Shown: positions 11,441-19,613 of the stretch, piece by piece | Layout: every line of letters starts with the position of its first letter | How positions within the stretch are numbered: the first letter of the stretch is position 1 | Assembly: GCF_000002985.6 (NCBI RefSeq) | Contig: NC_003281.10 | Location: 11,718,001-11,782,000 of the forward strand | Length of the DNA: 64,000 nucleotides | Direction: 5' to 3' | From: Caenorhabditis elegans | Lineage: Eukaryota; Nematoda; Chromadorea; Rhabditida; Rhabditidae | Notes under the pieces: generated by a model | Told to the model about the DNA's origin: nothing | Database searches by the model: none | Seen by the model: the letters and a program-made list of their open reading frames with translations, nothing else | Made by a program: the position numbers and the translations under genes

Positions 11441-12736
11441 AAAAAAACAATTTTCCATGAAAATTCCTAACTTACACATAGTTTGAACCCATTTATTCTA
11501 CAGTAACTGCCACATCACAAAAACCCGCATAAAAAATGACTGTAAAAGGGTGTTTGAGAGTGTGAAGTACTTGACCCTTTCCCCCTTGTTAAGCCTCTTT
11601 TAAACGGCTTATTCATTAAGTAAACAAAGAGGAAATCGGGGAAATGGTAGAAAAATGACTGAATTTGATGTTAGAAAAACTTAGTTTGATAACAGCCGAC
11701 AAATTACGGGATTGGAGATTTTTCAAGACGCGTAGATTTTCGGCTGCTTTTCTTTCAGCAAATTTTACAACACTTTAAGTTGCCGAAAATAAGCAGAATA
11801 TCTTTTCAAATAAGGAATCAGAAACGAATGTTCGATCACTTAAATTTTCTTTGTTCTATTATTTTTCAAAAAACCACGATAATAGGCGGAAAAGAACACT
11901 TAAATTCCCAACAAATTTCCATTTATAAAATAATAAAATGAACGCCTTGGCTTCTTTTGTATTGAATAAAAGAAGTGAATGAAGAAATGAGATATAAGTG
12001 GAAAGAATGACTGAAGAAGTGAGAAAAACTAGTTGATTGCGAGAAAAAAAACAGATATTTTTTGGATATTTATTAGATAGGAATGTGGTTGTTTTGCGAG
12101 GGATTTTGTGATAAGGGAGGAATTTTGGATATTTTCTGCATTTTTTTTCTGAAAGTTTTGGAGGTTTTTGGAAATTACAGGCTCTTTTGGCAACAATTGC
12201 AAATTTTTTTTCGAACAATCGTTAACTTTCGGCATATTTCCGGCAACTTTTGACAAATTTCCGGCAATTTTTGATAGTTTTAAGCAAACAACTTTTGACA
12301 ATTTTCGGCAATTTTATTACAACTTTTTGAAACTTTTGCCAATTTTCTGCAACTTCCTCGAACCTTCCACAACTTTCGTCATGTTTTGGCATATTTCCGG
12401 CAATTTTTGATAGTTTTCAGCAACTATCTACAACTTGTGGCAATTTTGGCAACTTTCGGCAGCTTTCTTAAACTTTCCAGCAATTTTTGGCGATATTTGA
12501 CAAATTGGTCCAGAAAAGTTCAGAAACTTTCGAAAACTTTTGACAAATATTCGACAAATTTTTTGCCAACTTTCGGCTGCTTTCTCTTGTCGGATAAATA
12601 TTGGAGTTATTATATCTTTCCGTGAACTTACAAAAAATTGGAAAAAAAAGTTTCTAAAAAATCAAATCTCGAATTTTTCCACGCCGCCTCCACTTATTTC
12701 CAACAAATCAATCAAAACAATATCGTTTTTTGAAAA
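11441..12736. other. Upstream region of the 12737 gene, low complexity
   Basis: No gene is seen. From 12170 to 12560 there is a loose repeat of GGCAACTTTTGACAAATTTCCGGCAATTTTTGA type (GGCAAYTTT units). The TTTTGAAAA just before 12737 precedes the start codon. Open frames in this repeat on both strands are low-complexity and are not genes. Confidence 0.4.
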
Positions 12737-13278
12737 ATGTGGAAATTGTTGTTGGTATTCGGATGTTTGTCAAGTTCCGTTTCCGGATATCTTCTGTCGA
12801 AAAGTGATCCGATTTGTCGTGACGAGAGTTTTCTCGTCTATTGGAAATCCAACGATCCGCAGGTGATCAAGGGAGACACTCAGTTCGACGTTACCAGCGA
12901 TTGCCACGTGGAATTCCAGGTAATTCGGGGGTAACAGGGAGGTGTCGGCTGCTTTCTGGGGATGGGGGTTTTGGCGGAAAGTTGTCAACCTGTGAGGTGT
13001 CGGTCGCTACTTGTGGGGTGCCTGCCGCTACTCGCGAGGTGACGGCCGCTACCTCTGAAGTGCCTGCCGCTACCCGTGAGGTGTCGGCCACTACCTCTGA
13101 AGTGCCAGCCGCTACCCGGGAGATGTCGGCCGCTTACTCTAATTGACCCAATTTTCAGGCTTGGTGGGAGCTCTTCATTGGTTTGGTTTTCGTGATCTGG
13201 ATTATGCAGTTCTTGCCGGCCGTCATCAACTTCATTGAGGGACCCGACAGAAGAGTGAAATGTTGCGGTGAAAAATGA
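12737..13278 (+). CDS. Small type I membrane protein, putative distant SUP-1 paralogue
   Basis: Two exons (12737-12919, 13159-13278) encode 100 aa. There is a signal peptide (MWKLLLVFGCLSSSVSG), a short ectodomain with cysteines at about 27 and 56, one membrane span encoded by the last exon (AWWELFIGLVFVIWIMQFL), and a short basic tail ending VKCCGEK. The architecture matches sup-1 at 19.6 kb and the gene at 14442. In all three the last intron falls in phase 0 just before the Trp that opens the membrane helix, and the tail ends in a Cys pair plus Lys. A polyadenylation hexamer (AATAAA) follows at about 13287. The intron contains GTGTCGGCTGC-type motifs and tandem GAGGTG(T/A)CGGCCGCTAC units. 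The function is unknown; the relation to SUP-1 is inferred. Confidence 0.8.
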
Positions 13279-14441
13279 AACTGATTAATAAAGTTTTTGA
13301 CTGAAGCAGCCGACACATTGCAGGTTGTGCCGTCAAGCTCGCGGAAGGCACTTTTCGGGTGCGCCTGAAGCAGCCGACTCTTCACAGGCGGCGCATCATG
13401 GGGCTTCCCCCTTGCAACTGACACCGCACAGGCTGCCAGAAAAGTGCGCTAGGAGCAGCCGACACATTACAGGTTGCTAAAAAATATTTACCACAACGGA
13501 AACCCTAGTAAATGTTCTAAAAATTATCAAAATAGTAGCAGCCGACACAATATAGGAAACGCAAAAATTCCAAAAAAAAAAACTATGTAGAAGTTCGAAA
13601 TGATACGAGAAGGACAAAAGGTGTTACACAATCTAAATGAGAAAAAGCGCGCGGAGAATGTCGTTAAGGCTTCTCCCTTTCTATGGTATAATTAGTCACA
13701 ATCAGCTGCTGTTGTCTTTTTCCTTTCTCTCCCTCTCGAGGTCAAGCACTTGCAGGGGGGCGAGAAACAGATGTAATAATCAGTCGAAAGGGGTAAATCG
13801 TTTGGAAAACAAATGCAGCCGACAGTATACAGGAGCAGCCGACATTTCACAGGTAGGGAAACATATTTACTGTACAAGCAGCAAATAATAGAAACGGACA
13901 AATTTTGGGACAGGATAGAAGTAGTTGATAAATTATGGGTCATCCTTAATTGCAGCCGACAGTTTACAGGTGACGAAAAAAGCAGCCGACAACTCACAGG
14001 CCATCATAGCTCTGGACCACAAGCAGCCGACATCTCACTGGCTTACCAAAATAGAAATTGCAGCCGACATCTCGTAAGCCGTGCTCTTCACAGAACAATC
14101 TAGATTGCGACAGCAGCCAAGACTTCAAAGGAGGTAGATGAGCCCAGTTTAGGGAAAGCAGCCGACACCATGAGATCCTACCCCGGTCAGAGAGAGCAGC
14201 GGACACTTCACTGGCTCTATTTTTCCTTTTTCTCACAGTTTTTCTTTCAAAAAACCGTGACCTCCCACTGATCGTCATAGCCTTGAATCCCACATACGAC
14301 ACGTTTCACTTCGAGAAACAAATTTTCGCTGAAAAAAGTCAGTCTTCGGTATTTTCTTTGTCGGATTCTGCAGTCTCGTTGGATTTTGTGAGTTCTAGTC
14401 GGCAATATTTCAAAAATCAATAATTTTTTCAGAGTCTCATC
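13279..14441. other. Intergenic region between the two plus-strand small membrane protein genes
   Basis: No gene is convincing. Most of the GCAGCCGACA motif copies lie here. A trans-splice-like acceptor (TAATTTTTTCAG) ends at 14432, 9 nt upstream of the next ATG. Open frames of up to 100 codons are interrupted by the motif and lack coding character. Confidence 0.45.
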
Positions 14442-14812
14442 ATGCTAAATCTCAAATTTCTCATCTCCTGCGTGATCATCGTGATCTTTGCGATCGTCTA
14501 CTCGGACGCCGGCGACGGAATGGACTTTAAAGTTTGTCAGGTTGCCGAAAATGTTGCTGAATACTATTTTTAGGGCCAAATTAGTTGTGGAGCGAAGTGC
14601 AATGAGCCATCGTTTGCCCATCACTACTACTGTTGCGGTGATGGCTTCAACGAGTGCTGTATTGGGCTTGAAGTGACATCTCAGGCCTTCAGATCCGATT
14701 GAAAGAACCGGCTAAATTTCAGATTTGGGTGATCATTTTGATGGCGGTTCTCACAATCATATCGATCATCTAGTGTATCATTGGATGCATGTGCTATTGC
14801 TGCAGAAAGTAG
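14442..14812 (+). CDS. SUP-1-like small membrane protein with an in-frame TAG inside its membrane segment
   Basis: Exons 14442-14531, 14574-14672 and 14723-14773 give 79 aa up to TAG at 14771-14773. Signal peptide: MLNLKFLISCVIIVIFAIVY. The Cys-rich ectodomain (ISCGAKCNEPSFAHHYYCCG, then ECCIGLE) aligns with SUP-1 (TKCGTSSIFHYWKCCGELNK, ECCFNLQ), and both introns match SUP-1 positions and phase. Exon 3 encodes IWVIILMAVLTIISII and then TAG. The frame continues past the TAG with CIIGCMCYCCRK and TAG at 14810-14812, and this matches the SUP-1 tail CICCRK. The TAG therefore cuts the protein inside the helix and removes a conserved tail. Possibilities are stop-codon readthrough, a recent nonsense change, or a tail-less functional form. 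Intron 1 is only 42 nt. Confidence 0.75.
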
Positions 14813-15664
14813 TTGGGGGTACATCGAACTACTTGGAATTTTTGTAAAGAATATAATAAAGTGATTAAAGATTTGGTGGACAGGAGGGTGTCGGCTGCTT
14901 AGCATGTTGGCAATCCCGTGAAAAGTCGGCTGCAACAAAGGTGGCTTATAAAACGTCCGCTCTTTAACTCAACAGTTTTTCTGACCCGTGAGGTACCGGC
15001 TGCATTTTAGCTGTCCCGCGAGGTGTGGGCAGCAGCTAAAGTTACCCATTTTTTTTGGAATTTTTTGGAATATCGAATTTTCAGAATGTGACAATTGTTT
15101 TGAAATTATCGATTTTTCGGAATTTATCGATTTTTCGGAATATCGATTTTTCAGAAATTTTTATTTTTTGGTATTCAACAAGTTTTTATGGAATTAATTG
15201 TTTTCTTGCTGAAATAATATATTTTTCGGAATTCAGAGATTTTTTTGGTATTTCGATAAATCTGGAAAAATCGATAAATTCCGAAAATTGATAATTTTTT
15301 CGATTTATATTTATCGATTTTTTCCCAGAAATGTGAAATTGATATGTATTTTCAGAATTTTATTTCATAAAAAAATAGCAATTAATACAGAAAATTCGAT
15401 AAAAGGTATTGTGGAAAAAGTACATGTTTGGAAAGCTTTTTGTTAGCAAATTTTATATAAATGCAATATTTTGTGACCGAGGGAATTATGCGAAACGGAA
15501 GGGGGGCGAAAGATTTTGAAAAATCGATTCTAAAAATATAAAACAAAAAAAAAATTGAGCCAAAGTATATAATTTTAAAAAATGTGGGCGGAGCTTAAAA
15601 TGGGAATAAATCGAGTATCGGGAAATTAAAACTAAATTGGTTGGAGGTGTACATATCGATTTTT
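14813..15664. other. Convergent intergenic region
   Basis: AATAAA at about 14853 probably ends the 14442 transcript. Reverse copies of the GCAGCCGACA motif occur to 15030. About 15060-15320 is a low-complexity stretch of ATCGATTTTTCGGAAT units in both orientations that can fold. No gene is seen. Confidence 0.5.
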
Positions 15665-18600
15665 CTACTTGCGGCAGCAGATGCAACGGACAAGGGAGAT
15701 GACGAAGGAGGCGATGAAGATGACTCCGAACAAGGCGAGGGTTACCCAGACCCATGTCTGAAAAAATTTATTTTTTTGAAAATATTTTGAAATGTGTTTT
15801 TTTTTAACTTTGTAACAAATATCTCAAAAATGGCAAGAGCTATAAAAAAGTTATAAACTAGCAAACTGTAGAAAATTAAATTTCCTACATTTTCTTAGTT
15901 GACAACTTTTTAATAGCTTTTGCCATTTTTGAGATATGAAAGCGCACAGGCAAAATTTCAAAAAAAAGCCTATGCCTATAAACCTATGCCTATGCCTAAG
16001 TCTAAGCCTAAGCCAAAGCCTAACCCTCTTAAAAAGTTACAAGAAGGTTTTTCCTTGCGCTTGGAGCGCAAAAGAAAAGAAAAAGAGCTATTTAGACTTA
16101 GGGTGCCCAACTGGAATAAAATATTGGAAATCCTTGACACACCGGCGGTATGGCGCGGCTTAAGCCTAAATAGCCACTTTTATCAAAATACATTTGAGCG
16201 AGGCGGTTGTAAACTATTCGTTTTTTAGCAAAAATAAAAAAAAACTTTATTTAAATTTAAAAATAAATATCATATGTTATCACACCTTAGAATATCCCGC
16301 CTTAATTTAGTAATCATTTTAGTTCATAAGTGTGAGAGAAAGAAAAATGGATTAATCATCGGAATTAAATATCATCAGAGTGATTATATTCATCAAAGGT
16401 CCCACTTTACTTGAGGGTTAACTTGATCGATATAAAATTCCTATCTCATGTGAAGAAAGGTTCAAATTCTGTACCTATGAATGCTGCCGATATTTGAATT
16501 CCTGTCTCATGGGAAGAAGGTCTTTCTTGTGGAAAGAACGGAGTTATAAAAAAATTTACGCAGGTACAGAATTTGAACTTTTCTTCCCATGAGATAGGAG
16601 TTTGTATATTGGCATTCTATAACTTTACTTTAAAAAAATCTCCAAAGGTTGCTCGCAAATATGTAGAGATTGCTCGCATCCCTTCAAATATTACAAAATT
16701 TCCAAGTTTCTTAGAAATAATCTTCATTTGGATTACTGAAAAATATCCACAGACTACTTTTGAGTTGCCTGAGAAGTTAGAGTAAAACGCAAAGCGAGCT
16801 CAAATGTATTTTGATAAAAGTGGCTATTTAGGCTTAAGCCGCGCCATACCGCCGGTGTGTCATAAGGATTTCCAATATTTTATTCCAGTTGGGCATCCTA
16901 GTATGTTTTTCGGGCCCTTAGGCTTAAGTGTGTCATAAGGATTTCCTATATTTTATTCCAGTTGGGCACCCTAAGTCTAAATAGCTCTTTTTCTTTTCTT
17001 TTGCACTCCAAGCGCAAGGAAAAACCTTCTTGTAACTTTTTAAGAGGGTTTCATATATTTTATTAAAATCGGGGCGAAGCCCTGATTTTAAATCCATATT
17101 GTTTTTTTTTTGTCTTCCTCTAGCCCTGCAAATAGGAAAGAGAATGTGTTCTTTCTCATGAAGTAAAAATCATCATAAAATCTTGAAAACTGAGAGCAGG
17201 AGGTAATATTTGAATATATTGGGTTGTAAATGTGTGTCTCGATGTGGGTGGGGTGGCGATGTGTCGGCAGCCAACCCTTCAACGAACTGTTTCTCCCGCC
17301 TGTATCTCCCTTCAAAGTGAGAATTGAGTTACAAAAATTTGAGGGAATATGAAAAGGTGTAAGGATTTCAAAAATATTAATTTTGAAACACCAGACCAAA
17401 CCACTTTTTCTGGGCAAGAGGCAAAAAATTAATTTTTTGAAAAAATTTCAAACTGGCACAAAATTTTTTCAAAAATAAATTTTTCACAAATTGTTAGTAG
17501 ATTTCATTTTTCATAAATATTGTTCATTGAACACAAAAAAGAAAACAAAGATTCATTAAAAAATGAGTGAAAAATCGCAAAAATTCGAAAAAATCAGTGC
17601 TGAAAAACTCGATTTTTTGGCGGTGCTGAAAAAAATTTTCACTAAAATTTTTTTGAAACTTAGTTTTTCGGATTTAGCGTCAAATTTTAAATCTATATAA
17701 AAAAACAAAATTGAAATTGATTTCAGATTGAGTGAATAATAAACGCTCAAAGTTGAAAAATGAACAACGCAAAAACGGCAGTAACTTGCTTCAAGGTCGG
17801 TTATCTCAGTGAGTTTTCACTCAATTTTCGAAATTTTTTTGCTTTATCGCTTTAGAAATATTTGTAATTTCATTTTTTTTCCTCAAAATCAAAATATCTC
17901 AAACGACCGCCATCCTACGAGAAGGGAAAAAAAAAGTTTTTGGAAAAAAAATCAAAAATTTTTTTTCTGCCTCGATTTTCAAAATGAAAAAATCACTTTT
18001 TCGGAATAATTTTTACTTTAAAATGTACCTACGATCTTTTTATACAACAATTTCACCTTGGAACCAAAGATTTCTCAAAGACAACAGCGCACGAAGCGGT
18101 GGTTTGCGAAAAAACACGAAAAAAACACACCGAAGTGGGAGGGGGGAGGTCAAAATTGCGAATTTGACTTTGGAGCTCTCTAAAAGAGCTCATAGCTGAT
18201 GGATCTGGACGATTTGTATGTTTTTCGACGCATCTCGTCGAGTACTATAAACTGCTAAAAAATCTCGTAAAAATCGCAAAAACTCGAATTTTCCTGCAAA
18301 CAAAAGAGGCGAAAAATGAGAAAAAAAACGTGATTTTTGGAGAATACTCGAAAATACTCTTCATATCTCGGCTCAAATAGCTCCAATCTTTCTGAAATAA
18401 AGCATACAGAGATGGGGCAAGCTTCTTGAAGAGACAGCAAAAAACCGCATCAAAATCCATCCACCCACCGTCAAGTTACACGCGCGTTTTCAGAGCGAAC
18501 GAAAAACAGGGCATAAAAAAATTTAGACGCCCGCACCCGGACTCGAACTTTTGTCGGATTTTGAAGCTTAATATCTCGGCTCCTGTAAATCGAAATTGGC

Positions 18601-19613
18601 TCAAAATTTACAAGAAACCTTATCCTGCTACGATCCTCCTGTCATTAAATTTTCGTGAGCTTAGACCGAAAACTGACAAAACGCCAAACTTTCAAATTTT
18701 AAAAAATAGTTGAGGGTCATTTTGAAAATACCTTAAGCTCCATAACTCGGCGAGTTTTGATGGAATCAATTTGAAATTTTACACGGAAGCTTCTTAGTGG
18801 CCTATACGTCTCTGTGTTAAATTTCGCTTTGATCGGCCAACGGGAACCCTTTGAAAAATGAAAAAAACGCTGTAATCCTAACCCTAAATGCTAACGCTCC
18901 CCCACTGACGCCAAACCTAAGTCTAACACCATTAAATTCCCGAAAAAATGCCGAAAAATAAAAAATTGGCAAACAGACAAATTTTTAAAAAGTCTCGAGA
19001 GCCATTTTGAAAACACCTTAAGTTTCTATCGAATCAACCTGAAACTTCAGAAGCTTTTTGGTGACCTACACGTCTCTCCGTAAAAATTCGCGTTGATCGG
19101 CCAACAGGAACCCCTTGAAAAATCAAAAAAAACCGGAAAATCGTAAGCTTAAGTAGCTAACGCTCGCCACTGACGCCAAGCCTATGGCTAAACCTAAGCC
19201 TAAGCCTGAGACTAAGCTCTACCCTAACCCTAACCCTAAGCCTAAGCCTACGCCTAAGCCTAGGCCTAAGCCTAAGCCTAAGCCTAAGCCTAAGCTTAAG
19301 CCTAAGCTAAAGCCTGAGCCCGGAAATTAAACTTCTTTCAAAACTGTACCTGGAGGTTAAAGCAGCATTCCTTGTTGAGTTCTCCACAGCATTTCCAGTA
19401 GTGGAAGATGCTAGAGGTTCCGCATTTGGTTCCGACCAATGGTACCGGGCAATATGTGTCTCCGTCCTAGAATTTTTTAGAAATTTTGAAGATATATAAG
19501 AGGAAAAGTACCTTTGTAGTGGTGACCTCATTCACTGCACTTTTCACGTCGTGGTCCACGTTGGCAGCCATTGCGAGTCCAATGCACGCGGCGAGTGCGA
19601 TGTAGGACATCAT
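15665..19613 (-). CDS. sup-1: SUP-1, single-pass membrane protein
   Basis: Exons 19613-19512, 19466-19350 and 15757-15665 encode 103 aa: signal peptide (MMSYIALAACIGLAMAA), a short ectodomain with Cys-rich motifs (TYCPVPLVGTKCG, HYWKCCGELNKECC), a single membrane helix (TWVWVTLALFGVIFIASFVI) and a Cys-rich tail (VRCICCRK). As I recall, C. elegans sup-1 encodes a novel single-pass protein of this size, whose G84E change suppresses a vesicular acetylcholine transporter (unc-17) mutation. Residue 84 in this reconstruction is Gly, in the middle of the helix, which supports the identification. The second intron (15758-19349) is 3.6 kb and holds a transposon, TTAGGC-type tracts and duplicated segments. 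A head-to-head duplicate lies at 14442. Confidence 0.85.
15968..16022. repeat. Short telomere-like CCTAAG/CCTATG tract
   Basis: About nine degenerate CCTAAG/CCTATG hexamers abut the left end of the transposon at 16024, inside the sup-1 intron. Confidence 0.75.
16024..17048. mobile_element. Non-autonomous DNA transposon with long terminal inverted repeats
   Basis: Outer ends are CCCTCTTAAAAAGTTACAAG (left) and its complement at about 17020-17048 (right). The inverted match runs about 170 bp on the left to about 16200 and includes GGGTGCCCAACTGGAATAAA, CCGGCGGTATGGCGCGGC and AGTGGCTATTTAGG. The right arm (about 16800-17048) is longer because a segment of about 66 bp beginning GTGTGTCATAAGGATTTCC is duplicated in tandem. 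The interior (about 16210-16790) has a 70-codon open frame at 16573-16785 without recognisable transposase motifs, plus its own inverted pair (TCTCATG...CATGAGATAGG at about 16444 and 16587). No clear target-site duplication is visible. Confidence 0.85.
17049..18720. other. Interior of the long sup-1 intron, no gene recognised
   Basis: AT-rich DNA with short GC-richer patches (about 17100-17400 and 18040-18560). Open frames here are shadows with no splice structure. The phrase CGCCCGCACCCGGACTCGAAC at 18530 resembles part of a tRNA T-arm but has no matching stem or A box. Confidence 0.4.
18725..19200. repeat. Two diverged direct copies of a segment of about 190 bp
   Basis: Segments at about 18735-18925 and 19015-19195 share CTACACGTCTCT, TTTCGC(T/G)TTGATCGGCCAAC, GGAACCC(C/T)TTGAAAAAT and AACGCTC...CACTGACGCCAA. 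They are in direct orientation, about 275 bp apart, and lead into a telomere-like tract. Confidence 0.75.
19163..19318. repeat. Interstitial telomere-like (CCTAAG)n tract
   Basis: About 22 CCTAAG/CCTAAC units, several consecutive and perfect, end just before sup-1 exon 2. The tract is in the sup-1 intron. The unit is the complement of TTAGGC. Confidence 0.9.

Follow-up and report, generated by a model that had tools for sequence, protein, structure and literature searches.

An in-frame TAG within the membrane helix of a SUP-1 paralogue in Caenorhabditis elegans: a probable recent nonsense change

Results

A SUP-1 paralogue on the plus strand at 14442-14812 of the window (the whole 64,000-nt stretch of C. 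elegans DNA that was analysed, positions 11,718,001-11,782,000 of contig C3) has an in-frame TAG within its membrane helix, and beyond this stop the frame continues through codons that are homologous to the tail of SUP-1. The TAG, at 11,732,771-11,732,773 of chromosome III if C3 follows the reference numbering, probably arose by a recent nonsense change in the sequenced strain and would abolish or reduce function; such a change explains the observations without special machinery. The features of the paralogue are as follows.

14388..14432, plus strand: possible 5' UTR intron, GTGAGT..TTTTTTCAG, 45 nt, or else a trans-splice acceptor just 5' of the ATG; read from the sequence (the donor is shared with the chromosome V copy, whose acceptor is TTTTTCCAG)
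14442..14531, plus strand: coding exon 1, which encodes the signal peptide and the beginning of the ectodomain; sequence and spliced translation
14532..14573, plus strand: intron 1, 42 nt, GT..TTTTTAG; spliced frame
14574..14672, plus strand: coding exon 2, six-Cys DUF2650 ectodomain; spliced frame and Pfam PF10853
14673..14722, plus strand: intron 2, 50 nt, GT..ATTTCAG, donor GAA/GTGACA; spliced frame
14723..14770, plus strand: coding exon 3 to the stop, 16 hydrophobic residues IWVIILMAVLTIISII; spliced frame
14771..14773, plus strand: in-frame TAG within the membrane helix; spliced frame
14774..14809, plus strand: preserved former coding sequence, CIIGCMCYCCRK; spliced frame, tail scoring and segment lengths
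14810..14812, plus strand: second TAG, where SUP-1 ends; spliced frame and segment lengths
14855..14860, plus strand: AATAAA poly(A) signal; read from the sequence

Translation of the joined exons gave MLNLKFLISCVIIVIFAIVYSDAGDGMDFK, GQISCGAKCNEPSFAHHYYCCGDGFNECCIGLE and IWVIILMAVLTIISII, followed by the TAG, by CIIGCMCYCCRK and by the second TAG, all in one frame. The sequence-only reading had placed a stop in the helix with a conserved tail behind it, and this was confirmed. It had also taken the rest of the gene to be intact, and no second lesion was seen, which counts against the reading favoured here: a signal peptide is encoded, and the six-Cys pattern ahead of the helix is present (SCGAKC..YYCC..NECC, the C..C..CC..CC of SUP-1). 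A frame or splice error as the cause of the stop was rejected. Of the products from the options tried, the one made with the acceptor at 14722 was the most hydrophobic (2.66), and the runner-up (2.05) used an acceptor 482 nt from the donor, beyond the poly(A) signal, and gave a product with no family likeness. Retention of intron 2 would give a product ending in CCIGLEVTSQAFRSD, a secreted form.

The window also contains a second gene of this type, on the minus strand:

15665..15757, minus strand: sup-1 exon 3, with the helix, CICCRK and TAG; sequence and translation
19350..19466, minus strand: sup-1 exon 2; sequence search and exon join
19512..19613, minus strand: sup-1 exon 1; sequence search and exon join

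The joined exons encode 103 residues with Gly at position 84. This agrees with PMC8664489, which describes SUP-1 as a 103-aa protein with a known G84E change. The two proteins share a signal peptide, a six-Cys ectodomain, an intron just before the helix, a single helix and a CCRK end, and they are 33% identical over residues 22-64. They differ in that the helix of SUP-1 is continuous and is followed by CICCRK, as had been noticed from the sequence before, whereas that of the paralogue is interrupted by the TAG.

The earlier suggestion that the codons after the TAG are preserved coding sequence is supported by tail scores and by segment lengths. Scored against the SUP-1 tail, the 12-residue tail of the paralogue reached 33. 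Among the 3,305 open 12-codon stretches that end in a stop on either strand of the 64,000-nt window, only two reached this score, the paralogue's tail and SUP-1's own, and the next best scored 22. When the comparison was confined to the window's stretches of 12 codons with a stop at each end (n = 188), the paralogue's tail was again first with 33, and the next scored 12. A chance tail was ruled out, the similarity to the SUP-1 tail being above that of all 3,303 other stretches in the window. With the TAG counted as one residue, the segment from the start of the helix to the end of the protein is 29 positions long in the paralogue, versus 30 in SUP-1, 29 at locus C1:7317816 and 31 at C2:6387180, and it ends in CCRK, as does that of SUP-1. 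By homology, then, the post-stop codons are former coding sequence.

The gathering cut-off for DUF2650 (Pfam PF10853) is 22.9 bits. SUP-1 scored 67.5 bits and the paralogue, with an X placed at the TAG, 59.1 bits. In a scan of the genome (100,286,401 bases, 7 contigs), 11 DUF2650 loci exceeded the cut-off, and exon 2 of the paralogue alone scored 35.2 bits. Ten of these were modelled: seven by script, together with sup-1, the chromosome V copy described below and the paralogue; the eleventh, C4:4111194, was left out. The helix is read through into a tail at 9 of the 10, and only the paralogue stops, with a TAG after 16 residues; the script favours long hydrophobic products, which in part predisposes this count to a helix and to about 17 open residues, and for the paralogue it gave a model that ends at the TAG. 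The family pattern suggests that a sense codon once stood at the site of the TAG.

With the paralogue as the query, no relatives were found among 195 pattern matches in prokaryote contigs, nor, with SUP-1 as the query, among 26 pattern matches in viral contigs. A literature search for DUF2650 gave no text match. In the available portions of the literature that mentions Y41C4A, which we take to be the clone name for this place, no passage on the paralogue was found.

The nearest copy of the paralogue is at C5:15672775-15673323, on the minus strand of chromosome V. It is 85% identical in DNA over window positions 14209-14748 and has a similar exon layout. Its homology to the paralogue ends at 14748, 22 bases before the TAG, and therefore it cannot date or polarise the stop; polarisation by this copy was dropped, there being no homology at the TAG itself. 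The copy's exon 3 continues to CCCCCCCGCLFRSNNN.., with a Cys- and Asn-rich end, and neither this end nor the 3' flank is recognisably related to the paralogue. The 3' flank resembles part of chromosome IV (84.5%), so that the copy is, on sequence grounds, a mosaic. It has also lost the intron 1 acceptor by deletion and lacks 2 of the 6 Cys, and unspliced its frame stops after 46 residues. These defects indicate that the copy is probably damaged, and only probably, since 22 of the 48 GT..AG pairs tried still gave a product open into the copy's own exon 3. The acceptors of these open products are non-consensus (AGATAAG, for example), and none is TTTCAG-like. At the donor of intron 2 (14673), the paralogue has GAA/GTGACA versus GAG/GTAACG in the copy.

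Between the paralogue and the chromosome V copy, identity is highest in intron 1 (97.4%), followed by exon 1 (93.3%), the 5' flank (91.2%), exon 3 as far as 14748 (88.5%), intron 2 (86.0%) and exon 2 (81.4%), so that exon 2 falls below the non-coding parts. Overall Ka/Ks is 0.118/0.189 (about 0.6; 18 and 7 changes). It is about 0.84 for exon 1 and about 0.38 for exon 2 (10.5 and 5.5 changes), and in the 24 nt of exon 3 that were compared, all three changes are non-synonymous. The exon 2 value would fit an ectodomain that was once under constraint. This divergence was set aside as a test of constraint on the paralogue: the changes are too few and the copy is too doubtful.

Discussion

We propose that in the lineage of the sequenced strain one helix codon of a SUP-1-type (DUF2650) gene for a small single-pass membrane protein recently became TAG, and that ribosomes would terminate there, within the helix. 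The mRNA should escape nonsense-mediated decay, given a last-exon stop and a short 3' end. The product would be a 79-residue precursor with a 16-residue hydrophobic end and without the Cys-rich basic tail. It would be expected to be poorly anchored, retained or degraded, and the allele would therefore be hypomorphic or null, as the tail-less product probably is. The codons past the TAG would owe their intact state to the short time since the change rather than to translation.

Against this proposal, the short form may still insert into the membrane, its end being about as hydrophobic as the SUP-1 helix: the best 15-residue means are 2.95 for the short form and 2.79 for SUP-1, and the best 19-residue means are 2.63 and 2.68. 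That the short form is itself functional is unlikely, and the layout of its C-terminus is what suggests it. A signal peptide combined with a hydrophobic run at the C-terminus, and with no basic tail after it, is the layout of a GPI-attachment signal. The short form has a signal peptide, small residues (e.g., Gly-Asp-Gly), a 9-residue spacer (FNECCIGLE) and 16 terminal hydrophobic residues, and the stop sits in the last exon, so the TAG may have converted what was a transmembrane protein to one that is GPI-anchored or cleaved. Cleavage at Gly-Asp-Gly, however, would cost the six-Cys ectodomain its last two Cys, and nothing seen indicates that the short form is under selection. A literature search on GPI gave no match. 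We consider it less likely that the product is treated as a GPI signal or still inserts than that it is degraded or retained.

The sequence-only reading had left the choice between read-through of the TAG and a very recent nonsense change. Preserved coding sequence beyond the stop was supported, and positive support for read-through did not emerge. Programmed read-through, in which some ribosomes would decode the TAG and the gene would make both a short protein and a full-length one that has a normal helix and Cys-rich tail, is improbable. It would fit the full tail, which is open and similar to that of SUP-1, and the second stop and poly(A) signal, which are at the expected place, but intact codons would look identical after a recent nonsense change. 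A CARYYA-type hexamer after the stop marks a read-through context. Here the context is TAG-T (TAG then TGTATC), without such a hexamer. The RNA fold of the 100 nt after the stop is weak (z = -1.41; 18 of 200 shuffled sequences equalled or exceeded its stability), as are the folds of two overlapping stretches (z = -1.82 and -1.09; 10 and 28 of 200 shuffled sequences did so); none of the three speaks positively for read-through. By a criterion drawn in part from PMC3609751, the TAG of the paralogue is not in a leaky stop context.

In that portion of PMC3609751, five C. elegans genes carry the conservation signature of read-through. The paralogue resembles genes of the C18B2.6 type in having an in-frame stop and then open, coding-like sequence. 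It differs in that their case rests on coding conservation across species, whereas the paralogue is known here from one genome. The worm candidate C18B2.6 stops at TGA-C and is predicted to form a structure (PMC3609751), in contrast to the TAG-T and the lack of a significant fold in the paralogue. The rarity of read-through and the stop context favour a recent nonsense change over read-through. A combined scheme, in which the TAG is a maintained switch that yields mainly a tail-less, possibly GPI-anchored form, while rare read-through adds a transmembrane form that carries a Cys-rich tail, would give one gene two membrane fates; we regard it as very improbable.

Avoidance of the stop at the RNA level, by A-to-I editing of the UAG or by splicing out 14729-14773 as an exonic intron, is highly improbable. 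The U and A of the UAG do close a 9-bp stem in the predicted fold of 14723-14822, but no ungapped run of at least 13 paired bases spans the TAG when G-U pairs are admitted and partners up to about 4 kb away are considered, and none of 25 inverted pairs, out of 46, lies over it. The acceptor consensus is TTTTCAG. The segment 14729-14773 starts with GT, ends with AG, is 45 nt long, 60% AT and in frame, and spans most of the helix; against its being an intron, its acceptor ATCATCTAG is unlike the consensus, and its removal would delete the helix, giving IWCIIGCMCYCCRK. An error in the reference is scarcely to be expected either: a single base decides the stop, but the assembly is chromosome-scale, in 7 contigs.

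A recent nonsense change would make this an ordinary case of natural loss, affecting the paralogue of a synaptic membrane protein; it would be useful for annotation and would show that the sequenced strain may lack a SUP-1 relative. Were read-through or a functional short form true, the anchoring of a protein would depend on a stop inside its membrane helix, which would be rare among worms.

Sequences near the paralogue

Upstream of the paralogue is a small plus-strand gene (12737-12919 and 13159-13278) that encodes a signal peptide and has an intron just before the helix (Q/AWWELF) and a CCGEK end. It gave no Pfam match above the cut-off, and by these features it looks like a divergent SUP-1-like neighbour. 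The 8-mer CAGCCGAC, often inside GCAGCCGACANNTCACAGG, has 12 plus-strand copies within 11693-14159, and the stretch 13307-14159, directly upstream of the paralogue, contains 11 of these. Exact GCAGCCGACANNNCACAGG occurs 39 times in the genome, versus 0 for the reversed control. On the minus strand the 8-mer has 4 copies (7780, 12944, 14890 and 14925), two of which are just downstream of the paralogue.
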